Below are positions 43,987 through 60,783 of a stretch of DNA of 60,783 nucleotides, piece after piece. Each line of letters starts with the position of its first letter. The first letter of the stretch is position 1. A model generated the notes under the pieces. It was given only the letters and a program-made list of their open reading frames with translations. It searched no databases and was not told the origin of the DNA. Source of the DNA: an uncultured Bacteroidia bacterium. Its GTDB lineage: Bacteria > Bacteroidota > Bacteroidia > Bacteroidales > F082. The stretch covers positions 1-60,783 of the forward strand of contig CACXIM010000011.1 of NCBI GenBank assembly GCA_902767725.1, in the 5' to 3' direction. A program made the position numbers and the translations under genes.

Positions 43987-44997
43987 TTATTCCAAAAGGT
44001 TCTCAAGGTCTTTCATGGCCTTGCGAGCCGACATGCCCTGATGCATCACCTGGTAAGCTTTTTCAGCAATGGGAAGCTGCCTGCGCTGCTCCTCGGGCAA
44101 GGATGGCAACATGGCGGAGGAATAATACCCTTCAGCCACCATGGTCATCTCGTTGAGGGCAGTCTTCACGGTGTTGCCACGACCAATCAACACGCCCAAC
44201 TGACGGTTGCGGCTGTGACTCGAATAACACGACACGAGCAAGTCGCCAAAGAAATTGGACGGGTTGAACTTGGTGAGGTCGTTGACGCTTTGGGGAGACA
44301 GCAGGAAATACATTTCCTTGATGCAGTTGGAGACCAACACGGCGATAAAGTTGTCGCCATAGCCCAAACCCATCGCAATGCCCACCATCACGGAATAGAT
44401 GTTTTTCAGCACAGAGGAATGCTCCAAATAACTCATGTCCCTCAAGCAATTCACCTTGACGAAGGGCGCCTTCAATTTCTCACCTATGACGCGGGCGTTG
44501 CCTATGTTGGAACAGGCGAAAGTCATGTAGGTCAGTCTTCCGTGACTCACCTCCTCGGCATGCGTCGGACCGCTGATGCAGCACAACTGCGCATCCGTCA
44601 AACCATAGTTTTGCTTCAGATAATCCGTGACAAACAGATTGTCCTTGGGTATGATGCCCTTAATGGCTGACACCACCATCTTGTCTTTCAAAGGGGTCTT
44701 CAAGTCGGAGAGATAGCACTTCAAGTAAGGAGCAGGGGTCACCAAAAAGATGATGTCGGCCCATTCCACGGTCTCGTTCACGTTGTCGGTAAGGTGGATG
44801 CGGCTCATGTCGAACTCGACATCGGAGAGGTAACGACAATTGCGGCCTTCGGTGCGCAACGACTCAAGCACTTCCTGGTTGCGGACGTACCAACAGACCG
44901 ATGATTCGTTCATAATCAACACCTTGGTGATGGCTGTAGCCCAACTGCCATGTCCGATAACGGCGCAACGCGATGTCTTTTGGATGAGCGGACCCAT
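43987..44997 (-). CDS. gpsA: NAD(P)-dependent glycerol-3-phosphate dehydrogenase
   Basis: A 336-residue enzyme that makes sn-glycerol 3-phosphate for lipids. The Rossmann motif VIGHGSWATAI replaces the usual GAGNWGTA but is normal for Bacteroidota. VSAIKGIIP, SGPTHAEEV, and the catalytic Lys in SVLKNIYSVMVG are present, as is SRNRQLG. It follows the BtrH-like gene on the same strand with a 20-base gap, so it is probably cotranscribed with it. It may be the general gpsA and also feed the neighbouring lipid-modifying cluster. Confidence 0.93.
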   Translation of the reverse strand: MGPLIQKTSRCAVIGHGSWATAITKVLIMNESSVCWYVRNQEVLESLRTEGRNCRYLSDVEFDMSRIHLTDNVNETVEWADIIFLVTPAPYLKCYLSDLKTPLKDKMVVSAIKGIIPKDNLFVTDYLKQNYGLTDAQLCCISGPTHAEEVSHGRLTYMTFACSNIGNARVIGEKLKAPFVKVNCLRDMSYLEHSSVLKNIYSVMVGIAMGLGYGDNFIAVLVSNCIKEMYFLLSPQSVNDLTKFNPSNFFGDLLVSCYSSHSRNRQLGVLIGRGNTVKTALNEMTMVAEGYYSSAMLPSLPEEQRRQLPIAEKAYQVMHQGMSARKAMKDLENLLE

Positions 44998-45017
44998 GAC
45001 GTTATTCTCTGTTTGAT

Positions 45018-46073
45018 TTATGCATATTTACGCACCATGTCGGAGTGCAAGAATTCTGTGTCGATCTTTTCGAAAATCCGTTTCTCTTGCTGACCTATCA
45101 TCTCCAGCAACTCTGACATCTCCCTCAAGGTGATGTTGTCACTTTTCATGTAACGGCGACTGTCGAGCGAGAACTGACGCCATGAGTCGGCATCGGCAGT
45201 CATCAGATTGGCACAGTCGGCCAACACTTCACTGCCAAACAACTCGGCGGCTTCTTTGAGAAAGTCGGCATACATGTAACGATGGCCTGCACCACCAGTG
45301 CCTGTCGTCTCAATCAACCGATAAATCCAAAGCAATATGAAACCTATCAGATTTTCGGAGAACCACACCTTCCACATCTTGAGGCTTCTGGCAAAACAAT
45401 GCAGACCTGTCCAACCATAAAAAGGCACAGGCACCCGAAGCATCCGTCGGCACGACTCTTCAAGACCTTGTATTATGGCAGGCTTGAGGTCCATATTCTC
45501 GCCAAAGCCTTTAGGAAGCGGATCTATATAGAACATTTTGCCATGAGGGGCTGCCAAACCTGATACAAAACGGCTCTTGCGCATGACATCTTCTGTCAAG
45601 AACACGTAGTCGTCGGTGGTTAAACGCGTGTCGGAGTCGGCGATGGTGTAATTCGAGCCCTCTTTGCCGATGACCGTGAGCACATGTCCGTTGAAATTTG
45701 ACTCGTTGACTACAGGCGAAAAATAGTGCAGACGAGCCACATTGACCACAAGGCCAACCGGTATCTGCTGGTCGACCAATTCATCAAGGGCCTTCATTGA
45801 CTTGTTGACGCGGTTACCGAATTCCTCATAATGGAAACCTATTCCCATCCTTTCGCAATAGTTCTTTGCAATCAGTCCGGGACGAATACGAAACATCGGC
45901 AATTTCACGCCACGCATCCTCAAGAAAGGTGAGTAAACAAAATTGAATCCCGAACCTATGCCGAAGGCCATGGTCTCGCTCATCCCTTCGTAGCCATAGT
46001 ATTTCAGCATATTCAGAAGCGTACCTGTCTCGCAATGCTTCTTACGCTGATTAGGATAATTTTCTAAGGCCAT
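45018..46073 (-). CDS. BtrH N-terminal domain acyltransferase-like protein
   Basis: A 351-residue protein of the butirosin BtrH N-terminal (papain-like/C39-like) family followed by a DUF4872-type C-terminal helical domain. KKHCETGTLLNMLKYYG has the probable nucleophile Cys14, FNGHVLTVIG has His130, and IADSDTR an acidic partner at about 146-148. BtrH moves an acyl chain from an acyl carrier protein to a substrate amine. Relatives occur in aryl-polyene and flexirubin-type clusters of Bacteroidota. The start MALENYPNQRKK is chosen because the promoter box at 46110-46103 lies between it and the longer ATG at 46202. Confidence 0.8.
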   Translation of the reverse strand: MALENYPNQRKKHCETGTLLNMLKYYGYEGMSETMAFGIGSGFNFVYSPFLRMRGVKLPMFRIRPGLIAKNYCERMGIGFHYEEFGNRVNKSMKALDELVDQQIPVGLVVNVARLHYFSPVVNESNFNGHVLTVIGKEGSNYTIADSDTRLTTDDYVFLTEDVMRKSRFVSGLAAPHGKMFYIDPLPKGFGENMDLKPAIIQGLEESCRRMLRVPVPFYGWTGLHCFARSLKMWKVWFSENLIGFILLWIYRLIETTGTGGAGHRYMYADFLKEAAELFGSEVLADCANLMTADADSWRQFSLDSRRYMKSDNITLREMSELLEMIGQQEKRIFEKIDTEFLHSDMVRKYA

Positions 46074-46102
46074 GACTTTTGACGATTTAGGATAATTTGG
46101 CG

Positions 46103-46135
46103 CAAAAATACGACTTTTTCTTGTTATTAATTCAA
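46103..46135 (-). promoter_or_regulatory. Promoter of the btrH-gpsA unit
   Basis: On the minus strand TTG (46135-46133), 22 bases, TATTTTTG (46110-46103), 29 bases before the BtrH-like start. It is divergent from the ligase promoter 80 bases away. Confidence 0.5.
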
Positions 46136-46190
46136 TTGCTGCTTTTTTCCAACGAAACCATGCCTTTTTTAAACTTTTAAGAAGTTTTTG

Positions 46191-46198
46191 TATCTTTG
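46191..46198 (+). promoter_or_regulatory. -7 box of the AMP-binding ligase gene
   Basis: TATCTTTG on the plus strand, 14 bases before the first ATG (46213). The very short leader makes the later in-frame ATGs at 46225 and 46237 plausible starts. Confidence 0.55.
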
Positions 46199-46212
46199 CC
46201 ACTCATTTTGAT

Positions 46213-47841
46213 ATGACCTCGCTCATGTCCGCCAATATGAAAGAAAACCTAGGCTTATACGAAACGTTCAGAGAGGCTGCAAAAAAGTATTCCGACAAGG
46301 TTGCTTTATGCTATTTCAAGAATGAGACGACGTTCGCACAACTGTTGGAGCGCATCGACATCACCGCCTTGGCTTTCAGGAAACATGGTGTGCAGCGTGG
46401 CGACATCATTTGTCTGGCTTTGCCTTCCATGCCCGAGTCGCTGATGTGTTTCTTGGCGCTGAACAAAATTGGCGCCATTCCTTGCATGATCGATGTCAGG
46501 TACACGCCCGAAGAGTTTTGCAAAATCGTCGATAGGACACATTCGAAGATGTTATTCGTCATGGGGCTTTATGCGGCTCACTTGGCCACGGCCGATGCCC
46601 AACTCAACGTGGAGAAAGTCGTGGTGTGCTCAGGTGCCGATTCCATCCCAGTAGCCTCTTTTTGGTTCGGCGTAGGCGAGTGGTTCAACGGAAGGAGAAA
46701 GGTGTTCTGGAAACACAAGAAATTCTGCCATTGGAAAGACTTCATCAAGACTGCTCAAGGCAAGGACGAGACTGAGCCTTACCATTGGATTCACGACGAG
46801 ATGGCGGCCCTGTTCCAGACCAGCGGCACCACGGGTACGGTGAAAAGCGTGATGCTCTCCACCGAGAACATCATGCACTCTGTGTTCCCCAACCCACCTG
46901 TTCTCAACAACCTTTCGAGCGACGACACTGCACTTTGTATCCTGCCTATTTTCGCTTTCTTTGGAGCCAACACCCTGATGCTTCCCTTGTTTCAAGGCAT
47001 GCGCGTTGTCGTCATCCCTATTGCGCCTCGTGAGGAATTCCTCAAACTCCTAACCCAATACAAGCCTCAACATGTTTTTTCTGTACCAGCCTATTGGGAT
47101 TTCGTTAACACAGAAAAAGAAGTCAAGGTAGACTTCTCTTACCTCAAATCCATCAATGTGGCGGGAGACATCCTGAACACCGCCTTCGAGAAACGTATCA
47201 ATGAATGCCTGCACCAAGGTGGCTGCCGCTACGACGTAACGAAAGCCTACGGCATGACCGAGACGGCTGGCGTCATCTCGTTCACCCCGCAAGGCAGCGA
47301 AAAACAATACGTACAAGGCTTCTCCGGAAAACCTGTGACATGCTATGAAGTCAAGACCTTCGACGATGAGATTTGCGTCCGCTCGGAGCTGAAGTTTCTC
47401 GGGTACTATAAAAACGAAGAAGCCACCAAAAACCTCATACAGACTCATGTTGATGGTAACCCATGGCTCCACACGGGCGATATGGGCTATTTGGATGACG
47501 AGGGCAATATCTTCGTCATTGGTCGCAAGAAGCGCATGATCGTCCGCCACGACGGCTCCAAGGTGTTTCCCGTTGAGATTGAAGACTGCCTGATGCAGCA
47601 TCCCTCGGTGGTAGCCTGTGCCGTGGTACCCATGCAGGACCCCGACCATTCGGAAAGTCATTTGCCCAAGGCGTTTGTGGTGCTGAAGGAATCCGGAACC
47701 CAAGTCACCATAAAAGAACTGATGGCCTACTGTGAGGCGAACTTACCAGTACACCTCGTTCCAGCGGCCATCGAGTTTATTGATGCCTTGCCGATGAACG
47801 GCAACGGAAAGGTTGATTACAAGAAACTGATCAAAGACTAG
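46213..47841 (+). CDS. Adenylate-forming acyl-CoA/acyl-ACP ligase
   Basis: A 542-residue ANL-family enzyme that activates a carboxylic acid with ATP and passes it to CoA or an acyl carrier protein. FQTSGTTGTVKSVMLS is the P-loop, YGMTETAGVISF the A5 motif, HTGDMGYLDDEG the A7 motif, and GNGKVDYKKL carries the catalytic C-terminal Lys. The substrate is unknown. It is the only plus-strand gene of the cluster, divergent from the BtrH-like gene, and its stop codon shares the CTAG tetranucleotide with the stop of the opposing gene at 47838. Confidence 0.88.
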   Translation: MTSLMSANMKENLGLYETFREAAKKYSDKVALCYFKNETTFAQLLERIDITALAFRKHGVQRGDIICLALPSMPESLMCFLALNKIGAIPCMIDVRYTPEEFCKIVDRTHSKMLFVMGLYAAHLATADAQLNVEKVVVCSGADSIPVASFWFGVGEWFNGRRKVFWKHKKFCHWKDFIKTAQGKDETEPYHWIHDEMAALFQTSGTTGTVKSVMLSTENIMHSVFPNPPVLNNLSSDDTALCILPIFAFFGANTLMLPLFQGMRVVVIPIAPREEFLKLLTQYKPQHVFSVPAYWDFVNTEKEVKVDFSYLKSINVAGDILNTAFEKRINECLHQGGCRYDVTKAYGMTETAGVISFTPQGSEKQYVQGFSGKPVTCYEVKTFDDEICVRSELKFLGYYKNEEATKNLIQTHVDGNPWLHTGDMGYLDDEGNIFVIGRKKRMIVRHDGSKVFPVEIEDCLMQHPSVVACAVVPMQDPDHSESHLPKAFVVLKESGTQVTIKELMAYCEANLPVHLVPAAIEFIDALPMNGNGKVDYKKLIKD

Positions 47842-48419
47842 AAATTGACGCTGAACGTCATTCCGTACGCCATATTGCCCTGTGATTGCGGAACATTCAC
47901 GGGCATAATGGACGGCGAGAGGCGATAGGAGACAGTCGTGGTTGGGTTGTTTTCGTTGTATTCCTCGGCTATTCTGCTGATTTTTCCTCTACCTATACCT
48001 TGAAAAGCAAATCCTGCTGGAAGCATCATCATGCTTCCATAAACACATAACCCAATACCTATCACAAGCACCTCACTACCCATAACTTTCTGGTCATAAT
48101 TGCCTTCGCTAGTCCCCATATAATGTGTTCCAAGCGCAGCTACACCCACTCCTGCCGCAGTAACACCGATTCCGCCACAGATGAGTCCTGTTCCAACTTT
48201 GAAGAACCTTCTACCGTGGCCATACGAATCATAAGTCTCTTCGTCAAGAAGTTGCATTAATTCGGCTTCCGGGATGACCACCTTTTCGGTGCCGTTAAGA
48301 AAACATAATTTTGATCTTTTGCGCACCATTTCGCCTTGTTCGGCAACGGTACCAGTTTCCTGTGCTATGGCTGCAAAACTAACAACCATAAGCATCAATG
48401 TTAATAACAATTTCTTCAT
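47838..48419 (-). CDS. Hypothetical exported protein
   Basis: A 193-residue protein of unknown function. MKKLLLTLMLMVVSFAAIAQ is a signal peptide, followed by a polar segment and two glycine-rich hydrophobic stretches (FFKVGTGLICGGIGVTAAGV and VLVIGIGLCVYGSMMML). The last residues (MAYGMTFSVNF) end in Phe after alternating strands, hinting at an outer membrane location. It is the last gene of the minus-strand cluster, 18 bases after the acyltransferase gene. Confidence 0.6.
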   Translation of the reverse strand: MKKLLLTLMLMVVSFAAIAQETGTVAEQGEMVRKRSKLCFLNGTEKVVIPEAELMQLLDEETYDSYGHGRRFFKVGTGLICGGIGVTAAGVGVAALGTHYMGTSEGNYDQKVMGSEVLVIGIGLCVYGSMMMLPAGFAFQGIGRGKISRIAEEYNENNPTTTVSYRLSPSIMPVNVPQSQGNMAYGMTFSVNF

Positions 48420-48437
48420 AATTATTGATTTTTACGG

Positions 48438-49559
48438 TTAGTATTTTGATTTCACGTCTATTGGATTAGCATAAATCCCTAAGAAAATCTCCTCCAATTC
48501 CGAACGGTTCATGTCGGGATAGTCGTTCATCCAATCCATATATTTTATGAACGTTTCTTTTTGTTCCTTGGTATAATGCTCAGCGTATGTTTCGCTGCCG
48601 CTTCGCAGGTCGTGGGCGATGTAATTGTTCGGATGGAGATAGAAATGCGGATTGATGCGGCTGTCCATCAGCTCGGCTACACGCTTGTAGAATTCGCCCG
48701 AAGGGCAGTCGTTCAAAGCCTTTAAATCGTCTTCTGAAACCATCGGACAGATATGGAAATGCACATGACCCTTGGGCTGCATGATGCCCGTCAAGATACT
48801 GTTGAGGTCTTCGTTGGGCTGCTTTTCGTAATGGCCGTTTTTCTTGGTCAGGTACAGTTCCAAAGTCTTCAACTTGTCGCACGACTCCCATTCGTAGGAA
48901 ACTGCAACGGGCACTATGTTCAATTCGGCCAATGAAACCACACGGTCGTCGCGACGACTCATGCCGAACATCTTGATGATGGCCGGATCGGTCGCATCGA
49001 TGCCGTTTTTGGTGCGGCCGTTGCGTTGGGCAATCCATACCGACTCGTGTACCTCGGTGATGACATGACGCATGTATTCCGACATGTGCATCATGCTGTT
49101 ATAAAACTCCTTGGGTGAGCCTCCACGCTCAGTGCGGAACATCTTGTTGACCTTGCCAAAGTCGATGACAAAAGGATGCGACATCAAATTGCTGCCAAAG
49201 GTAATCTGGCAGGTGTTTTGCCCGGCTTTAGTCAGGATATATTGCAAGAACATGGCATCGAGCACGATGTCGCGGTGGTTGGAGACGAAAAGATAAGGCT
49301 TTTTCTCGTCGATGTTTTCCAAGCCTGACCAGTCGAATTGTGTGGTGGTCTTTTTCAACAGGGTCTCTATCACCTCTTTCAGCAATCCCAATTGGAATTC
49401 CTTCAAGGTTTTGATATTACGGATCCTTTCGCGAAGCGCCTCGGCGGGTACACCGAGATATTGGGCGATGGCAGGAATCACGCTGCTGTCGGCCATGCGT
49501 TGCGTGGCAGCAGGGATTTCATCGGCGTTGAAAGGTCTGATATCGTCGAAATTGCTCAT
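48438..49559 (-). CDS. Acyltransferase, glycerolphosphate acyltransferase-like
   Basis: A 373-residue protein with the acyltransferase block FVSNHRDIVLDAMFLQYIL near residue 93. The His-Asp motif is HRDIVLD, with five residues between His and the last Asp, where PlsC-type enzymes have four. FRTERGGSPKEFYNSM is the likely second block (substrate phosphate-binding in PlsB-like enzymes), followed by SVWIAQRNGRTKNG. It has no signal or membrane helix. Its ATG overlaps the stop of the PaaK-like gene by 4 bases (ATGA), so the two are coupled. It probably transfers an acyl group to a lipid or sugar acceptor. Confidence 0.75.
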   Translation of the reverse strand: MSNFDDIRPFNADEIPAATQRMADSSVIPAIAQYLGVPAEALRERIRNIKTLKEFQLGLLKEVIETLLKKTTTQFDWSGLENIDEKKPYLFVSNHRDIVLDAMFLQYILTKAGQNTCQITFGSNLMSHPFVIDFGKVNKMFRTERGGSPKEFYNSMMHMSEYMRHVITEVHESVWIAQRNGRTKNGIDATDPAIIKMFGMSRRDDRVVSLAELNIVPVAVSYEWESCDKLKTLELYLTKKNGHYEKQPNEDLNSILTGIMQPKGHVHFHICPMVSEDDLKALNDCPSGEFYKRVAELMDSRINPHFYLHPNNYIAHDLRSGSETYAEHYTKEQKETFIKYMDWMNDYPDMNRSELEEIFLGIYANPIDVKSKY

Positions 49560-50857
49560 TGCCTATTCCTTAAGTCAATGAATTTGATGGGTTTGCGACT
49601 CTTGGCGGGATAGTTGATCTGCCTGATTTCGTCCACGGGATGGATTTCAATGGCAGGAGCCACGCGGATGCGGGAGCGGAAGCTGTCCTTCAGCACCTTG
49701 ACGACATCGAAGTCGGGTTGGTACTTCAGGCCTATCTTTACCACCACATCGTCGGTGCCGGCCTCGCTTTGGCGCACTTCGATGACATAGTTCTCCACAT
49801 AATCGGTATTGTCCAACACATCGTTGATCGCAGGCGGATAAAGCGTGGTACCCTTCAGCTTGATCATGTTGTTTTTGCGGCCCACAAGCGGCGTGAGGCG
49901 GTAGGAATTGCGCCCACACTTGCATTGGTCGACAATCTTGGCAGCGATGTCGCCCGTGCGGAAACGCAACAGCGGCATGGCTTCCACGCCAAGGGTGGTG
50001 ACCACAATCTCGCCCGGCTGACCATCAGGAACGGGCAAACCATCCTCACCGATGATTTCGACGATAATCAGCTCAGGATGCACGTGACCGCCAAGGCCAT
50101 ACTCGCATTCCGAGAAGGTGGCGCCCATCTCCGTCGAGGAATAGGTGGCAAAGAGTTGCACATCCCATTTCTCCTTGATCTTCTTGCCCAAGAGGTTGAG
50201 GTTGAAGTCCTGGTCGCGCAGGCCTTCGCCGATGCCGATGATGCGACGGATGCTGCTGTTCTTATAGTCGATGCCGTGTTCTTCGGCATATTGGATCAGT
50301 TTGAGGATGAACGACGGCACACACATGATGGTGTCAGGCTTGATACGACGGATGGTGTCCCACTGCAGTTCGGGGATGCCGTTGCCCACGCGGATGACAC
50401 CCGCGCCCAACTCACGCAGACCGAGAAAATAAGCCAAGCCCGCCATGAAACGCTTGTCCAAAGTGGTCATCAACTGCACTACATTGCCTGCATGTACGCC
50501 AGCGCACTCAAACGATTTCTTCTCGTTGAAAGCCAGACGTTGCAGGTCCTTCTCGGAACAGCCAAAGGTGACAGGGTCGCCTAGGGTGCCCGAAGTGGTG
50601 ATATAGTCGATGATCTTGTCCTTCGGACAGCATAGAAACTCATCGTTGAAAAGCTGCAGGTCTTTTTTTTCGGTAAAGGGAATCTTCACCAAGTCCTCGA
50701 TATGCTTAATTTTGTTTATCTGGATGCTGTAACTCTTGAACATCCTTTGATAGTAGGGTGAATGGGCTTCCAAATAGACCAAAGCATCGTGTAGCAAGCC
50801 TTCCTGAAAGGCCTTAATCTGTTCTACAGACTGGTATTCTATGTCGTTGTTAATCAT
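49556..50857 (-). CDS. Phenylacetate-CoA ligase-like adenylate-forming enzyme
   Basis: A 433-residue PaaK-type AMP ligase. TTSGTLGDPVTFG is the P-loop-like motif, YSSTEMGATF the adenine-binding motif, RFRTGDIAA the ribose-binding motif, and GRKNNMIKLKGTTLYPPAI the hinge. PaaK enzymes activate aromatic acids, so an aryl starter unit is a reasonable guess for the cluster. The CKCGRNS segment is a zinc-like cysteine pair common in the family. The start MINNDIEYQSVEQ replaces the longer ATG at 50920. It is coupled to the acyltransferase downstream and follows the esterase gene after 17 bases. Confidence 0.85.
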   Translation of the reverse strand: MINNDIEYQSVEQIKAFQEGLLHDALVYLEAHSPYYQRMFKSYSIQINKIKHIEDLVKIPFTEKKDLQLFNDEFLCCPKDKIIDYITTSGTLGDPVTFGCSEKDLQRLAFNEKKSFECAGVHAGNVVQLMTTLDKRFMAGLAYFLGLRELGAGVIRVGNGIPELQWDTIRRIKPDTIMCVPSFILKLIQYAEEHGIDYKNSSIRRIIGIGEGLRDQDFNLNLLGKKIKEKWDVQLFATYSSTEMGATFSECEYGLGGHVHPELIIVEIIGEDGLPVPDGQPGEIVVTTLGVEAMPLLRFRTGDIAAKIVDQCKCGRNSYRLTPLVGRKNNMIKLKGTTLYPPAINDVLDNTDYVENYVIEVRQSEAGTDDVVVKIGLKYQPDFDVVKVLKDSFRSRIRVAPAIEIHPVDEIRQINYPAKSRKPIKFIDLRNRQ

Positions 50858-50874
50858 CGGTTTCAAATTATTGA

Positions 50875-51762
50875 TTAAAACTTGATTTCGGCGAGCCATT
50901 TGAGGAACTCTGTTTTCCACTCACGGCATTCTGCGCTGCCTCGTTTCTCGCTAGCGCCAAAACTATGACCACCTGTTTTATATTGGATATAGCGATGCTC
51001 CACTTTTGCTGCGGTCAAGGCCGAGTCGAGGACCACCGAGTTGCGGTAGTCGACCACAGAATCGTCGACGCAATTGACAAGGAAAACCGGCGGACAGTCG
51101 GCAGGGATATGGCGTTCCAGCGAAAGTGAGTCGCACATCACCGGGTCGCGGTGGTGTTTCTCGCTCAGCAGTCCACGGCGCGAACGCTTGTGAACGTATG
51201 GTTTCACCATCGTCACCACAGGGTAAATGGCACCCACAAAAACGGGGCGTAGGTTAGTTTCGTTGTCGATACCAGCATCTTTCAGAAAATCATGTTCATG
51301 GAAAAACGCCGTCGACAAAACCAGATGTCCGCCTGCTGAAAAGCCTAACATTCCTACTTTGTCGGGGTTGATATGATATTCGTCGGCATGGGTGCGCACC
51401 CATTGCAGTGCCCGTTGCGCATCGGTAATCATATCGGGGTGTTGACGACCTCTAAAAATGGCCCTGTGGCGGTAAGCAAACGCACCGATACCTGCAACAC
51501 GGTATTCAAGCACAAAGGCCGAGATGCCATTGCTTTGCAGCCACATCGCAACGGAATCGCCTTCGTTTTTCTTGTCAAGCCAATAATAGCTGCCTCCGGG
51601 ACAAACGATGACGGCAGTGCCTGTGAGATTTTCATCGGCCAAGAAAGACGTCAATTTGACCCTCCTACCATGGCTGATATCCAATCCTTCCCAAATCTTC
51701 ACTTGTGCCTTCGTCATCCCTGTTATCAATAATAGACTGAATACGAGTATTATTTTTTTCAT
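50875..51762 (-). CDS. Secreted alpha/beta-hydrolase (esterase)
   Basis: A 295-residue hydrolase with signal peptide MKKIILVFSLLLITGMTKAQ. IVCPGGSYYWLDKKNEGDSV supplies the oxyanion hole, MLGFSAGGHLVL the nucleophile elbow GxSxG, VNCVDDSVVDYRNSV the Asp, and TGGHSFGASEKRG the His, so the triad is complete. It resembles BD-FAE/acetyl-esterase enzymes. Its start overlaps the next upstream gene by 4 bases. In the cluster it may deacylate or transfer the product in the periplasm. Confidence 0.85.
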   Translation of the reverse strand: MKKIILVFSLLLITGMTKAQVKIWEGLDISHGRRVKLTSFLADENLTGTAVIVCPGGSYYWLDKKNEGDSVAMWLQSNGISAFVLEYRVAGIGAFAYRHRAIFRGRQHPDMITDAQRALQWVRTHADEYHINPDKVGMLGFSAGGHLVLSTAFFHEHDFLKDAGIDNETNLRPVFVGAIYPVVTMVKPYVHKRSRRGLLSEKHHRDPVMCDSLSLERHIPADCPPVFLVNCVDDSVVDYRNSVVLDSALTAAKVEHRYIQYKTGGHSFGASEKRGSAECREWKTEFLKWLAEIKF

Positions 51763-52121
51763 CTACCTAGGATTTTCATCACTTCTTCCTTCGAGAGCTG
51801 ACGGTATTTGTGCTGCATGTCGGCAAAGAAATCCACTTGGAAATACTCCTCGTCGTAAAACGACAGCTTCGAATTGGTGTTAGGAGTACATTCCAAATAA
51901 ACGATGTCTTCCAATTGCAGGTTTTTTGCTTCACAAATCTGGTCGGCGAGCTTGCGACCGGCGTAGGTCACGGAAGTACCTGGGTTGTCTTGATACAATT
52001 CGGTCACGATGACGTATGTCTTGCCTTCCACTTCCCTGATCTTCAATCCGCAAGTCGATTCCATGTCCCATTCGCCTTTAAAGGGAAATATCTCGTCGTA
52101 ATATTCTGGTGATACTTTCAT
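51759..52121 (-). CDS. Small conserved hypothetical protein of the cluster
   Basis: A 120-residue, mostly polar cytoplasmic protein of unknown function. MKVSPEYYDEIFPFKGEWDM starts it, YVIVTELYQDNPGTSVTYAG and DIVYLECTPNTNSKLSFYD are strand-rich, and the C-terminus is KYRQLSKEEVMKILGR. There is no signal peptide or membrane helix. It is coupled to the esterase gene by a 4-base overlap, which suggests a direct role in the same pathway. Confidence 0.6.
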   Translation of the reverse strand: MKVSPEYYDEIFPFKGEWDMESTCGLKIREVEGKTYVIVTELYQDNPGTSVTYAGRKLADQICEAKNLQLEDIVYLECTPNTNSKLSFYDEEYFQVDFFADMQHKYRQLSKEEVMKILGR

Positions 52122-52127
52122 GAATTC

Positions 52128-53512: not shown

Positions 53513-53530
53513 TTCATATTGTTGAATCTG

Positions 53531-53538
53531 CAAAAATA
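53531..53538 (-). promoter_or_regulatory. -7 box before the radical SAM gene
   Basis: TATTTTTG on the minus strand in the 41-bp gap after the FAD enzyme gene, 18 bases before the radical SAM start. It may be an internal promoter for the distal half of the cluster. Confidence 0.5.
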
Positions 53539-53553
53539 CAAAAAAAATATATG

Positions 53554-56544
53554 CTATTCAGTTTTGTTGATTTTGCGGACTATGGCATTGGGCTCCAAGA
53601 AGGCCTCCGCCGTCTGTATCGCGGTAAGTGAAACACCGCATAGACCATGAATATTAACGTTTTGTCCCGTCAAAAACAGGTTTTTAACTTTCGTGAAGAC
53701 AGACATTTGCGAGAGCATGATGTTGTGGCTGTCTTTCAGGAAACCGTAGTTGGAGCCTTCCTTGTTGCCGTAATAGTCGCGGATGGTGAGCGGCGATGAG
53801 GCCATTACGAAATCAATGCCGTCGCGGAATCCAGGATGACTTTTTTCCATGAAATCGAGCACCTGCTCGGTCATCTGCTGTTTCCATTTTTCGTAGGCCT
53901 CTCCCCTATGACCCACCTTGGTATCATCCCACTGTTTAACCCATCCGTAGTCCATCTCGCCGATGATCACCATGGTCTCGGCAAACGCACCTTGGTTTTC
54001 AACGGCTGGGGTGTAATACATCAGGCTATTAGGCCAGTCTTCCTGCCGCAACACTTTGAGGTTGAATTGCGAATCGTACCTTGAAAGACAATAGTTGGTG
54101 TGGTTGACGTAGGGAAAAGCTTTTTCCTTGAATTTCACGTAGACCTTGAAACTGGAATACGTTTCGGGAATCGATTGCAGCCTTTTCCTGAACGAAATCG
54201 GGAAAGCCTTATCGCCCACCAGATGTAAGAGCACGTCGGGGTGCACATCCGAGATGTATCCATCGGCACGATAAGTGTGGCCTTTTCGGGTGACCACTTT
54301 CTTCACTTCGTGGTCTTCCACCTCGATTTGAATGACTTCTTCGTTGGCAAGCACTTGTCCACCAGTCTCTTCTATGACCCCTTTCAACAAATCCGCCATC
54401 TGTTGACTGCCACCGACAAACTGGTAGGTGCCACCGATGTGCAGTACACCGAGCAAGGCAGCCATGAAAGCAGGTGTCGTGCCAGTCACCCCACCGAAGA
54501 GCGGACTGATGTAGGACAACAAGCCTTTCAGTTTCGGGTCTTTGATGTAACGGTCCATCAACTCATCGTAAGGCAAAATGGCGTCTTCCGACACCGACAT
54601 GAACATCTGTGAGGGTCTTTCTCGCAAATAGAACAGATCTTCTTCTTCCGAAAGGGCATACATCTTCTCGACGTATGCTTTGATGTTGTCTTTTTCACTG
54701 GGGAAAAGTTCAGCCAAATAGTTGATATATTGTTCTTTGCCTCGAGGAAGTCGATAGGAAGTACCATCCTCAAGCACCGTCACCACATCGTAGCCGTCCT
54801 CGTCCATGGCGCGAAGCGAGAGATGATCCATAATACCGAGATAGGAAAAGAGTTTGCGCAACTGTCCCACCTCGTTGAAACCACCAAACACGTGCATGCC
54901 CGTGGGGAAACTGACGCCTTTTCTCTTGAAGTTCTGCAAGCCGCCACCGATGATGGTGTTTTTCTCCAACACGGTCACCTTAAAGCCTTCTTTGGCCAAC
55001 AAGGCACCCGAAACGAGTCCGCCCAAACCGCCGCCAATAACGACAACGGTCTTTCGGTTGGCTTCCACCATCTGTTGCCGCACCTTTTCTTCGCCCAACA
55101 GGTGTTGACACACCGTCATCGTGCCCACCAACACGCCTAACATACCGTGCGAATTGATGTTTTGCCCCACCAGAAGCAGGTTGGAGACTTTGGTCTTGAA
55201 CGACACCCTGTCGGCAATGTTGTTCACTTTTTTGGCAAGGCCGTAGATGGAGCCTTCGGGCGTCAGCGTATAGTCGCGATAAGTCAAGGGGGTGGCGGCA
55301 TAATAATCGGCCAAGGATTCACGGAATCCAGGAAAGTCTTGTTCAACGGCATCGATAAGACGTTCGGCCATGTCGTGTTTGAACTGTTCGTAGTCCTTGC
55401 CCCTGTGGCCAATGGACGTTTCGCTCCATTGCTTCATCGCATCCATTGACATATAAGCCAAAACGACGCCTCCGCGGGCGGTCTTGGGATGAGGCTCATG
55501 GCAATGGTGCATATAGAGATAACCTTGGGGCCAAGTGTCGTCGATCGTTCCGCTCATCTTCCAAGGCGAATCGGTGTGGAAACCATAGAAATTGGAGTTG
55601 TTGTAAGGCATCGCCCCCTCCTTGAAACGAAGGAAGAGCGAAAACACCGAGACGGTGTCGGGAATGCCCTTAATCCGTGATTTGTAAGCCTCAGTGAAGA
55701 TGCTAGGCTCCACCAAATTCACCAACTGCTTAGGATTGACATCCGAAATGACCACATCGGCAGCGAAGGTCATGCCGTTTTCAGTAACCACACCCGTAGC
55801 TTTTTTTCCTTCCACCAGAATTCGGCTCACCTTGTGACGAGTTAGGATGGTGCCGCCATATTGCTCAAGCACCTGACGCAAGGCCTTCACTATGGCGTCG
55901 CTGCCACCCACGATGCGAAAGGCGCTTTTGTTGTAGAAATCGAAGATGAAAGCATGGGTGGCAAAGGGTGTATTGTCTTTTTGGGCCGCATAAAGCGAAA
56001 GGTTGCCTACCAATACCTCACGCAGCAATGGGTCGGTGATGGTTTGATCGATTACCTCGCTTAAACTTTGATACAGCAACTTGTCGTCTATAAAACGGCT
56101 CTCGGCAACGCACTTCTGCAAGTCTCGAAAAGGTGACAAACCGGCCACATGCTCCACCAGGTCGCAATAGCGCTCAAGGTTCTCCCTTTGCGAAGAAAAA
56201 CGCTGTGCAAACTTTTCAATGAAAGCCTCGCGACCATTGGGAAAAGCGAAACGCTCACCATTCAACGCTACTACATCGTAAGCTTGCGTATCCAACCGAT
56301 TGAATTGGACTTTATCCTTGATTTCGAGATAATTGAAATAATGCGAAAGCACCTGGTCGTCGTCGAGACTGCCAATGAAATGCATCCCCGTCTCAAACTT
56401 CACTCCGTCGCGAGTGAAGCATTGCAGACAGCCGCCCACCTGTGAGGCCTGCTCCAAAATAGTAACTTCATAGCCGTTTTTCGCCAAGATGACACCTGCC
56501 GAAAGACCGCCTAAGCCGCTCCCTATGATGATGCATTTCTTCAT
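53554..56544 (-). CDS. Double FAD oxidoreductase (phytoene desaturase/retinol saturase-like tandem fusion)
   Basis: A 996-residue fusion of two complete CrtI-type FAD enzymes. Domain 1 (1-490) starts with IIIGSGLGGLSAGVILAKNG and ends with LLLVGQNINSHGMLGVLVG. Domain 2 (about 499-996) starts with VVVIGGGLGGLVSGALLAKEG (GxGxxG at 504-509) and ends with LFLTGQNVNIHGLCGVSLT. Both halves carry the GMHFIGS/GMHVFGG segment and a TYRDYTLTPEGS/TIRDYYGNKEGS block. Relatives desaturate, isomerise or saturate polyene chains. Family members are normally about 500 residues, so this is a tandem duplication with fusion. Its start overlaps the MMPL gene by 4 bases. Confidence 0.88.
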   Translation of the reverse strand: MKKCIIIGSGLGGLSAGVILAKNGYEVTILEQASQVGGCLQCFTRDGVKFETGMHFIGSLDDDQVLSHYFNYLEIKDKVQFNRLDTQAYDVVALNGERFAFPNGREAFIEKFAQRFSSQRENLERYCDLVEHVAGLSPFRDLQKCVAESRFIDDKLLYQSLSEVIDQTITDPLLREVLVGNLSLYAAQKDNTPFATHAFIFDFYNKSAFRIVGGSDAIVKALRQVLEQYGGTILTRHKVSRILVEGKKATGVVTENGMTFAADVVISDVNPKQLVNLVEPSIFTEAYKSRIKGIPDTVSVFSLFLRFKEGAMPYNNSNFYGFHTDSPWKMSGTIDDTWPQGYLYMHHCHEPHPKTARGGVVLAYMSMDAMKQWSETSIGHRGKDYEQFKHDMAERLIDAVEQDFPGFRESLADYYAATPLTYRDYTLTPEGSIYGLAKKVNNIADRVSFKTKVSNLLLVGQNINSHGMLGVLVGTMTVCQHLLGEEKVRQQMVEANRKTVVVIGGGLGGLVSGALLAKEGFKVTVLEKNTIIGGGLQNFKRKGVSFPTGMHVFGGFNEVGQLRKLFSYLGIMDHLSLRAMDEDGYDVVTVLEDGTSYRLPRGKEQYINYLAELFPSEKDNIKAYVEKMYALSEEEDLFYLRERPSQMFMSVSEDAILPYDELMDRYIKDPKLKGLLSYISPLFGGVTGTTPAFMAALLGVLHIGGTYQFVGGSQQMADLLKGVIEETGGQVLANEEVIQIEVEDHEVKKVVTRKGHTYRADGYISDVHPDVLLHLVGDKAFPISFRKRLQSIPETYSSFKVYVKFKEKAFPYVNHTNYCLSRYDSQFNLKVLRQEDWPNSLMYYTPAVENQGAFAETMVIIGEMDYGWVKQWDDTKVGHRGEAYEKWKQQMTEQVLDFMEKSHPGFRDGIDFVMASSPLTIRDYYGNKEGSNYGFLKDSHNIMLSQMSVFTKVKNLFLTGQNVNIHGLCGVSLTAIQTAEAFLEPNAIVRKINKTE

Positions 56545-59500
56545 TTCAAAAAATCTTGTGTTTCAATAACATACTCACATTGCGGAACCGCTTCGCCATG
56601 CTGCACAAAATGCAAGTTCTCGGGGATATGGCTGCAATGCGAGGCTAACAGGAACTTGTCTTCATCCGCCTCAATAGCATAGACCTGGGCATCGCGATGC
56701 ACCAAAGCCACGGTCCATGCTAATTCGCCATAGCCGCTGTTTTGGATTATAATGGACTTCTGTTCCATGGCATCGATTTCTGAAGCCTGTGCCTTGATTT
56801 TCTTCAAGTTGCGGCGACATACTCGTTCCACTTCCGGACCTTTGTAGATGTATTTGTAACGCACGAATGGAAGCACATATTCCGTGTTTTCCAATTGGTT
56901 TCTGAGTTCGGCAAAATGCTGGGTATAGTAAGCGCGGAACTGCGACGTCAAAGCGCGAGTTTCCATTGTGGCTAATTCTTCGTATGGCTTACGTTGTTCG
57001 ATCACCACATGCAATTGTCCTTCGCGCAAAACAACGTCCTTTTTGGGCATCACATGGTTGGCACCGTGGATGAAAACAGGCAGAATATCCAGTTTGAGTG
57101 ACTGTGCCAGTTGGAACGCACCCTTATGGAAACGAAGGATTTCACCCGTCTCGGAGCGCGTGCCTTCGGGGAAGACCACCACGGAATAGCCGCGTTCCAC
57201 CAAGTTCTGCAAGCGTTCCAGGTTTTTGTCGTAACCGTCCGAAACGGGATAATACTCGGCATAGCGAATGACGAGGCCGTAAATTGGGTTTTTCCACACC
57301 CAGTCGGTCGTCAGCAACACTACCTTGGGATTCAACATGATAGTGCACAACAGGTCGAGGTGTGACTGGTGGTTAGCGATGATGACGGCAGGTTTTTCAA
57401 AGGTTTCGCCATATTTGTTGTCCAAATGGAACTTCACGCCAGGTAGCAGTTTCAAAGCGATGCGCATGAAAGCCGCTATCAACCGATGGAAACAATAGCG
57501 TTTCTTCTCGGTATTGGGGCCCAATATCATGTAAACCAAGGTAAACGGCGTAAAAATAAAGAACACGAAAACGACGAAGACCAACAAGGATAATAGGGTA
57601 TAAATGAGTCGTTTCAATGTCAATGGTACCTCACGGAGTTGGCCTTTTTTCTTGGTTAGCCAGCCGAAGACGATGGGCGGAAGGTAGCAGGCCATCAGGA
57701 CCACAGTTGCCATGCCGATGATGGCAACCTCGGCCAAGGAACGCATGGCGGGATGCTTGGCGAAGATTAAAGTGCCTATACCGATAAACATCAGGATACC
57801 ACTGAGGATAACACTATTGCGGTAGTTCTTCAGCATCCGCTTGCCGTAGGCGTATTCGTAGAGCAAACCCTCGGTAATGAAGATGGTGTAGTCGTCGCCC
57901 TGGCCGAAAATGAAGGTGGCCAAGATGATGTTGATGATGTTGAACTTGATATCGACCAGATTCATGATGCCCAAGATCCAGGCCCAGCCGACTGTCAGCG
58001 GCAAAAAGGCTAACAAGGCCAATTCCAGTCGCCCAAACGAGAGACAGAGGAAGAAAAACACCAAGATGCTGCACACATAAAGGATGTAGTCGAAATCGCT
58101 TGACAGTGCACTCACCAAATTGTTGCCCACATCGCTGATACTGAAAGCGAAGCCATTAGAAACCGAGGTCCCTGAGCCCGTCGAAGGGCCGGCTTGAAGG
58201 GTCGTCATTTCTGGATTGCTTCGTCGTCCCTCCTCGCAATGACGCGAAGCGACCACAAGCCTGATCTGTTCCTTCACCGCCTCCGATTCCTCCATCGGCA
58301 CCCGCACAAAATTCACCACCCGAGCCACCGAATCGTGCTGCAGCATATAGTTGCCACACAAGGGGAGCAGCGGCTCCATCTCGGTTTCGGCCAAAGGCTG
58401 ATAGTCCTTGGTGATACCCTCAATAAATGGGGCAAAAGCGTTTTCTGTGAAACCTGCTTTCACCGCTTCAATCTTGACTTGCTCGGCCAAGTCAGCATGG
58501 CGTTGCCAGAACGCTTGCCACAACTCCAACGACTTCTCTTGTCTTTCCACAGAAGGCAACAAACCATCCATGCCTGAGATGCTGTATTCCACACTATCGG
58601 GAATCGAGTGTTTCAGTTGGGCAATGATGCTTTCGTTTTGCTTGATGGCTTCTTGAAAATCTGTGGCTTCCGAAACCACATAGATCAAGTCAGTCTCCCC
58701 TTCTTTTTGCAACGATTCGCTCAGCAAGGCCAAGTCTTCCTGCTCTTGGCGGGTCATATAGTTGATGTTGTGAAGGTCGGCATCAAAAGCGGCTTCTTTA
58801 CCGAAATAACCGAGTATCAGTGTGATGATTACCAAAGGCCAGAAAGCGTAGAGCTTGACTTTGCGCCACCATTCCGAAGGGGCTTTGCCGTCATCGACGA
58901 AGAGTTTCTTGGTCTTTTTCGGCACCACGGCAAACAAAGGCAGGAAGACCATCACGAAGAGTATCGTACCCACCAAGGTCAAAGCACCAAAGAGCCCCAA
59001 GTCGCGCATGGCTTCGGCTTTCACGAAGACAAGGCAGGCAAAGGCCGCTACGGTGGTGATGTTGCCGATGACCAAAGGCTGGATGACATCCTTCAAGGCC
59101 TCGCGTTTGTTGGGCTCCTGCTTGATGTGGTCGAGGTAATGCAAGGGATAGTTGACCGCGATGCCCACGATGACCGAGCCGATGCCCACCACGATGATGG
59201 AGATGCTCGTCTTGAACAAGGCGATGACCGCCAAAGCAAAGATCCATCCGAAAAGAATGGCGATGCCGAGCCACAACAGGTTGCGCTTGCGCGCCATGGT
59301 AAACATCAAAATGCCAAAGATGAGCACCAAAGCCAAGGCAATGGAGAGATAGCTGTCGTGCTTGATTTGTCGCGCATTGGTGACGGCAATGGTAGGCGCG
59401 CCGACAGCTGAAATCTTTACCTCTGGATGCTCGCTCTCGGTCAGTTCAGTCACCTTATCGATCAAATCGACGATTTTGGCATTGCCTTGGGTGTCGCTGC

Positions 59501-60176
59501 CCGAGAAAGGCGACGAGAAGAAGGCAAAGCCTTTGTCGCCGCTTTCGTTGAAGAGGTATTCATCCTCCAAGCGGTAGTTTTGTGTGGGATTGAGCGCATT
59601 GAGCCGTTGTAAAGCGGGCGAATAGAGGTTGAGTGGATCTGCCTTGACACCATCCACCACAAAACCAGCCGTGGGCATGGAGAGCATCCGCTTGATGTTG
59701 GCCATGCTGGTGGCTACATGCTCGGGATTAGCCAACAAGGAGTCCATGCGTTGGTAGTCAGCTTCGGTGAGAAACAAGGCTTGGTTTTCGCGGATGAAGT
59801 CGATGGCGTCAAACACTTGGCTGCCGTCGACACGACATTGCAAGTCGCTGACGATTTGGGCGGTATCTGTTTCTTTCCAATGGCTCTCAAAGGCATCCAT
59901 GGCCTCCATGATGGCGTCAATGGCCTCGTCGCCAGCTAATTGGGTGGTATCGGCAGAGAAAATGACTGTGATTTGGCCTTGGTTGCCCAAGTCGTTGTAG
60001 ACCGAGGTGTAGCGTTCCTTTTCGGGGTCGGTGGGCAGGAAGTCGGCGATATTCTCCTTATAGTCCAGACGCAGTGCCGAAAACACGCACAGGGCTGTGA
60101 CAACCAGCAATAGGGCTATCGAGAAGGCCTTGTGTTTCGACAGGTAGTCATAGATATTGAGGAAGAACTTGTTCAT
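56541..60176 (-). CDS. MMPL/RND exporter fused to a PlsC-type acyltransferase and a C-terminal Rossmann-like tail
   Basis: A 1211-residue inner membrane protein. Residues 1-900 form a two-repeat MMPL/RND transporter: an N-terminal helix, a large periplasmic loop, a block of helices from about 285 (LSIALALVLIFGILMF), a second loop, and a second helix block from about 690 (FDYILYVCSILVFFFLCLSF), with GQGDDYTIFITEG as a family motif. Residues 930-1100 are a PlsC-like acyltransferase with NHQSHLD (HX4D, 935) and VVFPEGTRS (about 1002). The last 90 residues (IIIQNSGYGELAWTVALV, VYAIEADEDK) look like a partial methyltransferase-type Rossmann fold. Residues of about 644-670 come from an inserted DNA repeat. 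MMPL exporters are standard in aryl-polyene clusters. Confidence 0.88.
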   Translation of the reverse strand: MNKFFLNIYDYLSKHKAFSIALLLVVTALCVFSALRLDYKENIADFLPTDPEKERYTSVYNDLGNQGQITVIFSADTTQLAGDEAIDAIMEAMDAFESHWKETDTAQIVSDLQCRVDGSQVFDAIDFIRENQALFLTEADYQRMDSLLANPEHVATSMANIKRMLSMPTAGFVVDGVKADPLNLYSPALQRLNALNPTQNYRLEDEYLFNESGDKGFAFFSSPFSGSDTQGNAKIVDLIDKVTELTESEHPEVKISAVGAPTIAVTNARQIKHDSYLSIALALVLIFGILMFTMARKRNLLWLGIAILFGWIFALAVIALFKTSISIIVVGIGSVIVGIAVNYPLHYLDHIKQEPNKREALKDVIQPLVIGNITTVAAFACLVFVKAEAMRDLGLFGALTLVGTILFVMVFLPLFAVVPKKTKKLFVDDGKAPSEWWRKVKLYAFWPLVIITLILGYFGKEAAFDADLHNINYMTRQEQEDLALLSESLQKEGETDLIYVVSEATDFQEAIKQNESIIAQLKHSIPDSVEYSISGMDGLLPSVERQEKSLELWQAFWQRHADLAEQVKIEAVKAGFTENAFAPFIEGITKDYQPLAETEMEPLLPLCGNYMLQHDSVARVVNFVRVPMEESEAVKEQIRLVVASRHCEEGRRSNPEMTTLQAGPSTGSGTSVSNGFAFSISDVGNNLVSALSSDFDYILYVCSILVFFFLCLSFGRLELALLAFLPLTVGWAWILGIMNLVDIKFNIINIILATFIFGQGDDYTIFITEGLLYEYAYGKRMLKNYRNSVILSGILMFIGIGTLIFAKHPAMRSLAEVAIIGMATVVLMACYLPPIVFGWLTKKKGQLREVPLTLKRLIYTLLSLLVFVVFVFFIFTPFTLVYMILGPNTEKKRYCFHRLIAAFMRIALKLLPGVKFHLDNKYGETFEKPAVIIANHQSHLDLLCTIMLNPKVVLLTTDWVWKNPIYGLVIRYAEYYPVSDGYDKNLERLQNLVERGYSVVVFPEGTRSETGEILRFHKGAFQLAQSLKLDILPVFIHGANHVMPKKDVVLREGQLHVVIEQRKPYEELATMETRALTSQFRAYYTQHFAELRNQLENTEYVLPFVRYKYIYKGPEVERVCRRNLKKIKAQASEIDAMEQKSIIIQNSGYGELAWTVALVHRDAQVYAIEADEDKFLLASHCSHIPENLHFVQHGEAVPQCEYVIETQDFLK
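58168..58244. repeat. Compound repeat inserted in the MMPL exporter gene
   Basis: The first part (58168-58193) is the 26-bp CCCGTCGAAGGGCC-type repeat also found inverted at 13881-13906. The second part (58203-58244) is bounded by CGTCATT and AATGACG and contains GGATTGCTTCGTCG and CCTCGCAATGACG, another widespread bacterial repeat. On the coding strand it gives RHCEEGRRSNPEMTT and AGPSTGSGTS. The reading frame is kept. Confidence 0.85.
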
Positions 60177-60243
60177 CAGGATTTCTTGTTATTGATCAAG
60201 AATGTAGAGAATTTGAGATTTAATTATTGAAAATCATTTGGAA

Positions 60244-60783
60244 TTAGAGAAAAAATCGCAAGCGATTTTTGGGTTTAAACAATTTGTGGATCAATCGCGA
60301 AGGCCAACCATAAACAATAGCCACAAGGCAAAGGATAGTATTGAGCACGCTGATGCGGAAGAAGTCCCAAAACGGACGGAAGTGCGTAACACGGTCTTCG
60401 GGATATAAAACATTGACCTTGATGGGCACCAAGTCTGTGCCGCGCCAGGCGGAGAAGACTAAGAGCGACAGTTCGGCCTCATAGCGGGCGCTAAAAATTT
60501 GGGGCAACCTTTTCAAAGGATACAAGCGATAACCCGTTTGTGTGTCGGGCAAATCGATCCAAGTTTGTATCTTAAACCAAAAGTTCGAGAATTTGTTGGC
60601 GAAGCTGTTCTTGCCGGGCATGTTCTCTTGTTTCAGGTTGCGGCTGCCCACAATCAAGGCGCCGGGGTGTTGCTCCAAGGCCTTGACAAACAGCGGGATG
60701 TCTTCAGGATAATGCTGTCCGTCGCTGTCGATGGTGATGGCATAGTCGAAGCCCATGGCTTTGGCTTTCTTGAAGCCTTGCTT
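60244..60783 (-). CDS. Family 2 glycosyltransferase (C-terminal part, cut by the window edge)
   Basis: The frame is open to the window end, so at least 179 C-terminal residues are seen and the N-terminus is missing. AITIDSDGQHYPEDIP carries the DxD-type metal and nucleotide-sugar binding motif of GT2 enzymes of the dolichyl-phosphate mannosyltransferase kind. GALIVGSRNLKQENMPGKNS and DTQTGYRLYPLKRLP are typical later blocks. A short hydrophobic segment (VLNTILCLVAIVYGW) near the end suggests membrane association. Glycosyltransferases of this type accompany MMPL exporters in aryl-polyene/flexirubin-type clusters. Confidence 0.85.
   Translation of the reverse strand, partial: KQGFKKAKAMGFDYAITIDSDGQHYPEDIPLFVKALEQHPGALIVGSRNLKQENMPGKNSFANKFSNFWFKIQTWIDLPDTQTGYRLYPLKRLPQIFSARYEAELSLLVFSAWRGTDLVPIKVNVLYPEDRVTHFRPFWDFFRISVLNTILCLVAIVYGWPSRLIHKLFKPKNRLRFFL

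Follow-up and report, generated by a model that had tools for sequence, protein, structure and literature searches.

Gene content of the window

The window analysed here is the whole of contig C11 (CACXIM010000011.1; 60,783 nucleotides) of assembly GCA_902767725.1, from an uncultured member of the Bacteroidia whose genome, G000, comprises 3.06 Mb in 153 contigs and is 79.6% complete. Its right-hand part, positions 43987 to 60783, carries twelve genes that appear to include the attachment, export and tailoring half of an aryl-polyene cluster, a known kind of gene set by which gut bacteria equip their outer membrane with yellow polyene pigments. Among them is a pair of adjoining genes, for a radical S-adenosylmethionine (SAM) enzyme and a 120-residue protein, that forms our main subject. 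All twelve genes named in a preliminary description, made from the sequence alone, are present (Table 1), eleven on the minus strand and the ANL ligase gene alone on the plus strand. Families were assigned with Pfam and NCBIfam profiles, whose scores are set against the curated cut-offs. Because the picking of open reading frames misses genes overlapped by a longer antisense frame, gene presence was taken from tblastn.

Table 1. Genes at the right-hand end of the window, and one gene type found next to the pair in rearranged relatives
Product	Coordinates	Strand	Profile match or further occurrence
GT2 glycosyltransferase, truncated at contig end, 179 aa	60244..60783	-	Pfam PF00535, 25.7 bits
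MMPL/RND-type lipid exporter fused to lysophospholipid-type acyltransferase, 1211 aa	56541..60176	-	PF03176 + PF01553
Fused tandem CrtD/CrtI-like flavin adenine dinucleotide (FAD) oxidoreductases, 996 aa	53554..56544	-	TIGR02733 (CrtD), 253.8 bits
B12-binding-domain radical SAM enzyme, CxxxCxxC, 451 aa	52178..53533	-	PF04055, 30.3 bits
Small partner protein, 120 aa	51759..52121	-	no Pfam/NCBIfam family
Alpha/beta-hydrolase esterase, BD-FAE type; apparent signal peptide (by eye)	50875..51762	-	PF20434, 78.5 bits
FlxY, putative 4-coumarate-activating acyl-CoA ligase (PaaK-like)	49556..50857	-	NF053551, 698 bits (cut-off 520)
Acyltransferase, 373 aa, last gene of conserved block	48438..49559	-	PF01553, 36.3 bits
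Small exported protein, 193 aa (export judged by eye)	47838..48419	-	no family over cut-off
ANL acyl-CoA ligase, 542 aa, variable neighbour	46213..47841	+	PF00501, 197.8 bits
BtrH-type acyltransferase, DarH-like, variable neighbour	45018..46202	-	PF14399 + PF16169
GpsA-like glycerol-3-phosphate dehydrogenase, variable neighbour	43987..44997	-	NF000942, 224 bits (below cut-off 257)
Large outer-membrane-type protein	L061:4917-7310	-	also L056:5855-8236; 791-815 aa genes in G793, G758, G638

Three of the four-base overlaps that had been taken as signs of a single pathway do join genes of the same strand (MMPL-acyltransferase and FAD genes, 56541-56544; small protein and esterase, 51759-51762; FlxY and acyltransferase, 49556-49559), whereas the fourth, at 47838-47841, is a tail-to-tail contact with the opposite-strand gene. 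The FlxY frame is open to 50920, which would give a 46-base overlap with the esterase gene; its conserved start lies at 50857 (alignment A1).

The core of the cluster on a second contig

The contig ends at 60783, within the GT2 gene, so the cluster has been truncated by assembly and not by biology; in the relatives G052, G011, G044, G021 and G071 the full-length GT2 protein has 249-263 residues. The preliminary description had read these genes as half of an aryl-polyene or flexirubin-type cluster, and had predicted ketosynthases, acyl carrier proteins (ACPs), a dehydratase and an ammonia-lyase in the other half. All were found on contig C32 of the same genome, which carries ketosynthase genes (four matches) and an aromatic ammonia-lyase gene. 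The final 12.5 kb of C32 encode FlxA, FlxB, a ketosynthase, FlxJ, an ACP and an LpxL-type acyltransferase, followed by a FabZ-like dehydratase, a thioesterase, a ketosynthase and a protein with a C-terminal ACP, then a double ketosynthase, a small EamA protein and LolA2; after LolA2 the contig end interrupts a gene that, judged by eye, is lipoprotein-like. Four of these proteins exceed their NCBIfam cut-offs: FlxA, a tyrosine ammonia-lyase (NF053541, 843 bits, cut-off 700), the reductase FlxB (414, cut-off 340), the methyltransferase FlxJ (594, cut-off 560) and the chaperone LolA2 (167, cut-off 125). The dehydratase is a weak match, at 29 bits, with none from Pfam. Ordinary genes to the right of 60783 and a genome free of linked ketosynthases had been named as the contrary outcome; in fact the contig stops there and ketosynthases of the cluster type occur in the genome.

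The two halves are joined in three relatives. In G052, G011 and G044, core and window genes form a single contiguous run, from FlxA to LolA2, then a 125-133 residue protein, GT2, the MMPL-acyltransferase fusion, FAD, radical SAM, small protein, esterase, FlxY and acyltransferase. The radical SAM gene of G044 was missed by the picking of reading frames and its presence was confirmed in locus L065. C32 and C11 are likely to be contiguous in G000 as well, judging from these relatives.

Contig C32 also carries a reverse transcriptase gene (G000:C32:2976-4250; L011:2976-4250) that matches the group II intron type at 125 bits and Drt3a at 64 bits, both below cut-off; it could be a defence-type or domesticated reverse transcriptase.

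Distribution of FlxY-type clusters

Of 392 genomes in a sample of the phylum, 36 have FlxY above its cut-off, as do 99 of 392 Bacteroidales genomes and, among 14 control genomes, Bacteroides ihuae alone. From a scan of named genomes with the FlxY profile, the best 80 of 157 confirmed loci were retained (the 80 FlxY loci below). Some of these are contigs of genomes that also entered the other searches (L075 and G052 are one such case), and the two sets are not independent. The titles of the 80 name Bacteroidales, Bacteroidia, Prevotella and similar assemblies, and ruminant gut samples are the source of many. Clusters of this kind are common in the rumen, with 2,800 aryl-polyene clusters reported among 8,160 genomes (PMC8241843), and the backbone is therefore ordinary; an arylpolyene cluster reported from Bacteroides xylanisolvens resembles that of flexirubin (PMC12940132).

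The order radical SAM, small protein, esterase, FlxY is kept in 29 of the 80 loci, and this sharing is far from chance. The esterase lies upstream of FlxY in 71 of the 80, the acyltransferase (48438-49559) lies downstream of FlxY in many, and the MMPL-acyltransferase fusion gene recurs in relatives.

Family and occurrence of the radical SAM enzyme

The three cysteines of the CxxxCxxC motif, C183, C187 and C190, are invariant in seven sequences, and PF04055 scores over its cut-off; the B12-binding domain, PF02310, reaches 23.2 bits, below its cut-off of 32.1. In all ten NCBIfam families matched, the protein falls below cut-off. TIGR04013 is the best match, at 57.6 of 251 bits, and HpnJ the second, at 45 bits; the scores therefore place it in none of HpnJ, BchE, HpnR, AprD4 or TIGR04013. 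The ladderane-associated B12/radical SAM family TIGR04072 gives 37.2 bits against a cut-off of 360. In a profile search of solved structures the nearest is AprD4, a weak match at E 5e-5.

With a profile built from seven orthologues, the enzyme was detected at 570-902 bits in 43 of the 392 Bacteroidales genomes. The radical SAM and FlxY searches used the same settings and returned agreeing handles, and the two 392-genome samples are taken as identical. On that basis FlxY is present in 39 of the 43 genomes with the radical SAM enzyme and in 60 of the 349 others (Fisher p 3e-22). Since the genomes are related, the count by genus is the fairer one: FlxY is found in 22 of 24 genera with the enzyme and in 35 of 180 others (p 4e-12). 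Among the 39 genomes with both, the two genes lie within 6 kb of each other in 17, 6-50 kb apart in 8, and on different contigs in 14. Outside the Bacteroidales, 33 FlxY genomes yielded no orthologue, and three of them have paralogues at 178-198 bits. The orthologous group thus far appears only in that order. The preliminary description had placed the enzyme outside the classic aryl-polyene core, and an addition it is: beside the 33 genomes from other orders, 60 of the 99 FlxY-carrying Bacteroidales genomes have no orthologue.

In one genome of the same genus, the radical SAM gene occurs as two adjoining pieces (G016:C42:23666-25005), owing to a frameshift or an assembly error.

Behaviour of the pair as a cassette

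The 120-residue protein has no Pfam or NCBIfam match at E 0.001, and a profile search of solved structures gave a single chance-level match, at E 0.15, from which we claim no fold. One cysteine, C24, is invariant across 17 sequences (alignment A4). The small gene occurs in 40 of the 392 Bacteroidales genomes, all 40 within the 43 that carry the radical SAM gene; in G761 the two genes are apart, the small one next to FlxY on contig C216 and the radical SAM gene on C1.

Among the 80 FlxY loci, both genes are present in 29, both were not found in 51, and neither ever occurs alone; the sequence available upstream of FlxY is shorter than 6 kb in 18 loci, including 14 of the 51. Where the FAD and esterase genes flank the site, they stand 1706-1955 bp apart in the 28 loci that have the pair and 18-249 bp apart in 18 that do not. 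One pair-negative locus, L089, has a gap of 1485 bp containing another frame of 442 residues, and in L107, L109 and L116 the FAD match lies elsewhere. Both-or-neither presence and the gap sizes together indicate that, in these loci, the pair behaves as a single-site cassette. The cluster is kept, and the pair missing, in five close FlxY loci (L071, L073, L083, L089 and L094).

Both genes are under purifying selection. Compared with L067, the radical SAM gene has a nonsynonymous rate (dN) of 0.014 and a synonymous rate (dS) of 0.81, and the small gene 0.028 and 0.97, for dN/dS of about 0.02 and 0.03; dS is mostly saturated for L075 and L104. In 16 loci at middle distance the radical SAM enzyme averages 94% protein identity, the small protein 93% and FlxY 91%; the FAD halves, the esterase and MMPL average 55-74%. 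Ten gene products, all encoded outside the C32 core, were compared, and in each of the three distance groups the mean is highest for the radical SAM enzyme.

The esterase has diverged far more quickly than the genes around it, as if it faced a changing substrate: its dN and dS against L067 are 0.287 and 1.81, where four other tested genes have dN of 0.014-0.037.

The FAD enzyme in other FlxY clusters

The double desaturase had also been held to lie outside the classic core, and here the claim stands in part. Tested against CrtD, the fused FAD protein does not belong to that family (cut-off 549.7; score in Table 1). FlxY neighbourhoods were fetched from ten genomes of the phylum sample. Four of them (G292, G356, G418 and G491) have a CrtD-like FAD gene that follows MMPL/acyltransferase and precedes FlxY; no such gene was found near FlxY in the other six. 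Of those six, G236 has an MMPL gene near FlxY and no FAD match, and in G426, G443, G387, G217 and G135 the MMPL block is not beside FlxY within the fetched stretch. The FAD gene itself is thus no outsider to clusters of this kind; the second copy and the fusion are the variants. Among the 80 FlxY loci it is fused, split in tandem, single or missing, and, with fusion state judged from frame lengths, a single FAD frame of 986-1035 residues occurs in 19. Of the 80, 20 have an FAD enzyme and no radical SAM gene. The fused double enzyme is a local variant of a part found in other such clusters, and was dropped as a candidate novelty.

Other settings of the pair

Elsewhere in the order, the gene order around the pair is rearranged. 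In G110, G662, G736 and G601 it follows genes for an FAD enzyme and a C45-type acyltransferase. In G110 it is followed by a crotonase gene and then a KAS III-type gene, StlD/DarB-like at scores far below those cut-offs, and the genes in the same place in G662, G736 and G601 are similar in length to these. In G704 it comes after genes for a BtrH-like protein and an ACP, divergent from the FlxA core. The pair of G638 and G758 lies about 5 kb upstream of genes of those two types, with FlxY 8-9 kb downstream of it. That the pair is near aryl-polyene genes despite the rearrangements suggests that it follows these genes in many cases.

In several rearranged genomes a large outer-membrane-type protein is encoded directly downstream of the cassette (Table 1). 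The one tested, from L056, contains a CarbopepD_reg domain, and its counterparts in G117, G793 and G638 appear similar on inspection by eye; this protein is possibly a receptor or transporter for the product. In G736 (L239:4745-5878, minus strand) and G601 (L240:9083-10117), a second radical SAM gene, of 28% identity, lies a few genes downstream of the cassette.

Variable neighbours

The preliminary description had assigned all twelve genes to one pathway. That assignment can be kept for the conserved block, which terminates at the acyltransferase downstream of FlxY, and given up for the ANL ligase, BtrH and GpsA-like genes, which are missing beside many relatives' clusters that retain the remaining genes. 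The ANL ligase gene, which runs against all the others, is outside the operon and is present in some FlxY loci only. The GpsA-like gene, which does not adjoin the cluster in G052 and G011, is perhaps a housekeeping gene. Both were dropped as pathway genes. The small exported protein evolves fast and is variable, with 27-72% identity in those relatives that possess it. The BtrH-type protein, at 247 bits against a cut-off of 300 for NCBIfam DarH (NF053550), falls outside that family. In close relatives its identity falls into two classes, about 62-68% (L063-L067, L070) and 83-96% (L062, L068, L069), while its neighbours (acyltransferase, ANL ligase, GpsA) mostly show at least 86% identity in the same relatives, which suggests replacement of the gene.

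Flexirubin or another anchor

True flexirubins, as described in PMC3992019, are aryl polyenes esterified to a dialkylresorcinol. The DarB ketosynthase of resorcinol-type clusters has a cut-off of 550 bits, and nothing above 43 bits was found in G000 (79.6% complete) or in nine genomes of its genus; nor was DarB found in a tenth relative of the same genus, G806. It scores over cut-off in G292 and G426 and reaches 499 bits in G356. The C45-type acyltransferase, which we infer to be a defining flexirubin feature and to join the two halves of the molecule, was found in none of the 80 FlxY loci, whose flanks extend to 10 kb at most. It is present in four of the ten fetched phylum FlxY genomes, adjoining FlxY in G292 and G356, and in six of 24 radical SAM neighbourhoods. 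With DarB not found in eleven genomes of the genus and no C45-type acyltransferase in 80 loci, the product is probably not a true flexirubin; by its gene content it is probably an aryl polyene on an anchor other than resorcinol. A tie between the radical SAM enzyme and resorcinol was considered and dropped, as DarB exceeds its cut-off in only 10 of the 39 radical SAM genomes searched (of 43 carriers), G761 having two matches just under it.

Discussion

We put at about 0.72 the probability that the window holds the attachment, export and tailoring half of a flexirubin-type aryl-polyene cluster, with its core on C32, and that the cassette modifies the aryl-polyene lipid. A pathway may be laid out by analogy with the flexirubin (PMC3992019) and Escherichia coli aryl-polyene (PMC8253772) pathways as outlined in those reports. 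FlxA would convert tyrosine to 4-coumarate, which FlxY would activate; ketosynthases, ACPs, FlxB and the dehydratase would assemble the polyene, FlxJ would methylate it, and the CrtD-like FAD enzymes would desaturate or isomerise the chain. GT2 and the acyltransferases would link the polyene to a lipid or sugar anchor, and MMPL and LolA2 would take the product to the outer membrane. The radical SAM enzyme and its 120-residue partner would be an optional cassette for an oxygen-independent C-H modification of the aryl-polyene lipid. The observations themselves are the gene content, the family membership of FlxA, FlxB, FlxJ, FlxY and LolA2, the contiguity in three relatives, and the linkage of the cassette and the selection on it; the order of the pathway and the substrate and reaction of the cassette are predicted. 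C-methylation seems the single likeliest reaction, at about one chance in three, with sugar or anchor modification next and ladderane-type ring formation unlikely. A role for the radical SAM enzyme as substitute for an oxygen-dependent one in clusters of the aerobic type was considered and dropped: ten unassigned proteins of the G292 cluster have no Pfam oxygenase domain, five of the ten matching no Pfam family at all.

Several observations weigh against this proposal. The ends of C32 and C11 share no sequence overlap on direct comparison; upstream of GT2 in G071 lie 15 kb free of core genes, and in G002, whose GT2 was seen in L068, about 6 kb of other genes separate LolA2 from the genes preceding GT2. 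Radical SAM and FlxY genes are on different contigs in 14 of 39 genomes, some (G015, for example) at contig ends. Four of the 43 radical SAM genomes (G118, G601, G662 and G678) have no FlxY match, of which G662 and G601 still have the pair beside genes of aryl-polyene type. In G098 the radical SAM neighbours look unrelated and FlxY is on another contig, and the small protein was not found in three of the 43 (G098, G118 and G581). The 60 FlxY genomes that have no radical SAM enzyme make it dispensable. Finally, nothing in the sequences separates methylation from other radical chemistry.

The cluster may be as proposed while the pair acts on the sugar or lipid anchor, by deoxygenation or ring rearrangement, and not on the polyene; this is on balance unlikely, its odds not being exclusive of those just given. 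AprD4 and HpnJ are associated with reactions of these two kinds, and they are, respectively, the nearest solved structure and the second NCBIfam match of the enzyme; the cluster contains a GT2 gene; and in three genomes, G117, G704 and G793, the gene immediately before that for the radical SAM enzyme is of sulfotransferase type (domain tested in G117, by eye in the other two), and BtrH and, in G704 and G793, ACP lie near it, all of them genes of an attachment type. All these family matches, however, are at superfamily level and far below cut-offs.

Less likely again is an ordinary aryl-polyene pigment cluster of no chemical novelty, in which the pair is a bystander. The backbone is indeed of a known and, in the rumen, abundant type (PMC8241843), and both the 60 of 99 FlxY genomes and the five close loci that do without the pair are what would be expected of a bystander. 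Against this stand the co-occurrence at genus level, the repeated co-location with aryl-polyene genes in several families, the place of the pair among the most conserved of ten gene products, and the findings on DarB and the C45-type acyltransferase that speak against a true flexirubin. Radical cyclisation or coupling of the polyene, in parallel with the ladderane candidates of Kuenenia, where a B12-radical SAM enzyme, phytoene-desaturase-like enzymes and several ketosynthases are reported together (PMC2649909), is very improbable, given a TIGR04072 match of a tenth of its cut-off, a core of the tyrosine-primed aryl-polyene type and the 20 loci in which FAD enzymes occur without the radical SAM gene.

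Among the closest known systems is the flx cluster of Chitinophaga pinensis and Flavobacterium johnsoniae as reported in PMC3992019, with which the present cluster shares equivalogs of FlxA, FlxB, FlxJ, FlxY and LolA2, several ketosynthases, ACPs and a dehydratase-like protein. The order LolA2, GT2, MMPL/acyltransferase, FAD and, further on, FlxY is that seen in the fetched genomes G292 and G356. The present cluster differs from the flx cluster in that DarB was not found in G000 and ten genus relatives, nor the C45-type acyltransferase in 80 loci, and in having an added esterase, a second acyltransferase, a doubled FAD enzyme, the radical SAM enzyme and the small partner. With the E. coli CFT073 cluster (PMC8253772) it shares ketosynthases, ACPs, a dehydratase, a methyltransferase, a thioesterase, a LolA-like chaperone, an RND transporter and glycosyltransferase/acyltransferases; that pathway starts from 4-hydroxybenzoate, whereas here tyrosine would enter through an ammonia-lyase, and its gene table lists neither an FAD desaturase nor a radical SAM gene. 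The Kuenenia clusters are alike in their B12-binding radical SAM, phytoene-desaturase-like and multiple ketosynthase genes, and unlike in that the present enzyme is far below the TIGR04072 cut-off and that the account of them in PMC2649909 names no tyrosine ammonia-lyase or FlxY. The flavoaffinins of Clostridium thermocellum are also aryl polyenes, made by an obligate anaerobe growing on cellulose; their candidate cluster has a type I polyketide synthase (PMC11839114).

What is new, then, is the radical SAM gene with its adjoining 120-residue gene; the remaining backbone is of known type. In the open-licence literature we found no paper on flexirubins or aryl polyenes combined with radical SAM or cobalamin. 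We offer only tentatively, as an idea that could easily be wrong, that the pair is a new two-component cobalamin-type radical system dedicated to the aryl-polyene lipids of Bacteroidales and that, in this genus, it introduces a novel modification into resorcinol-free pigments; a new product is possible. Because the small protein matches no Pfam or NCBIfam family, the pair offers a new combination of radical SAM enzyme and partner protein. Related species with and without the cassette at one site provide a clean genetic comparison, and should differ by one chemical step. Given the abundance of aryl-polyene clusters in rumen bacteria (PMC8241843), a compact and conserved two-gene cassette within them is of particular interest.

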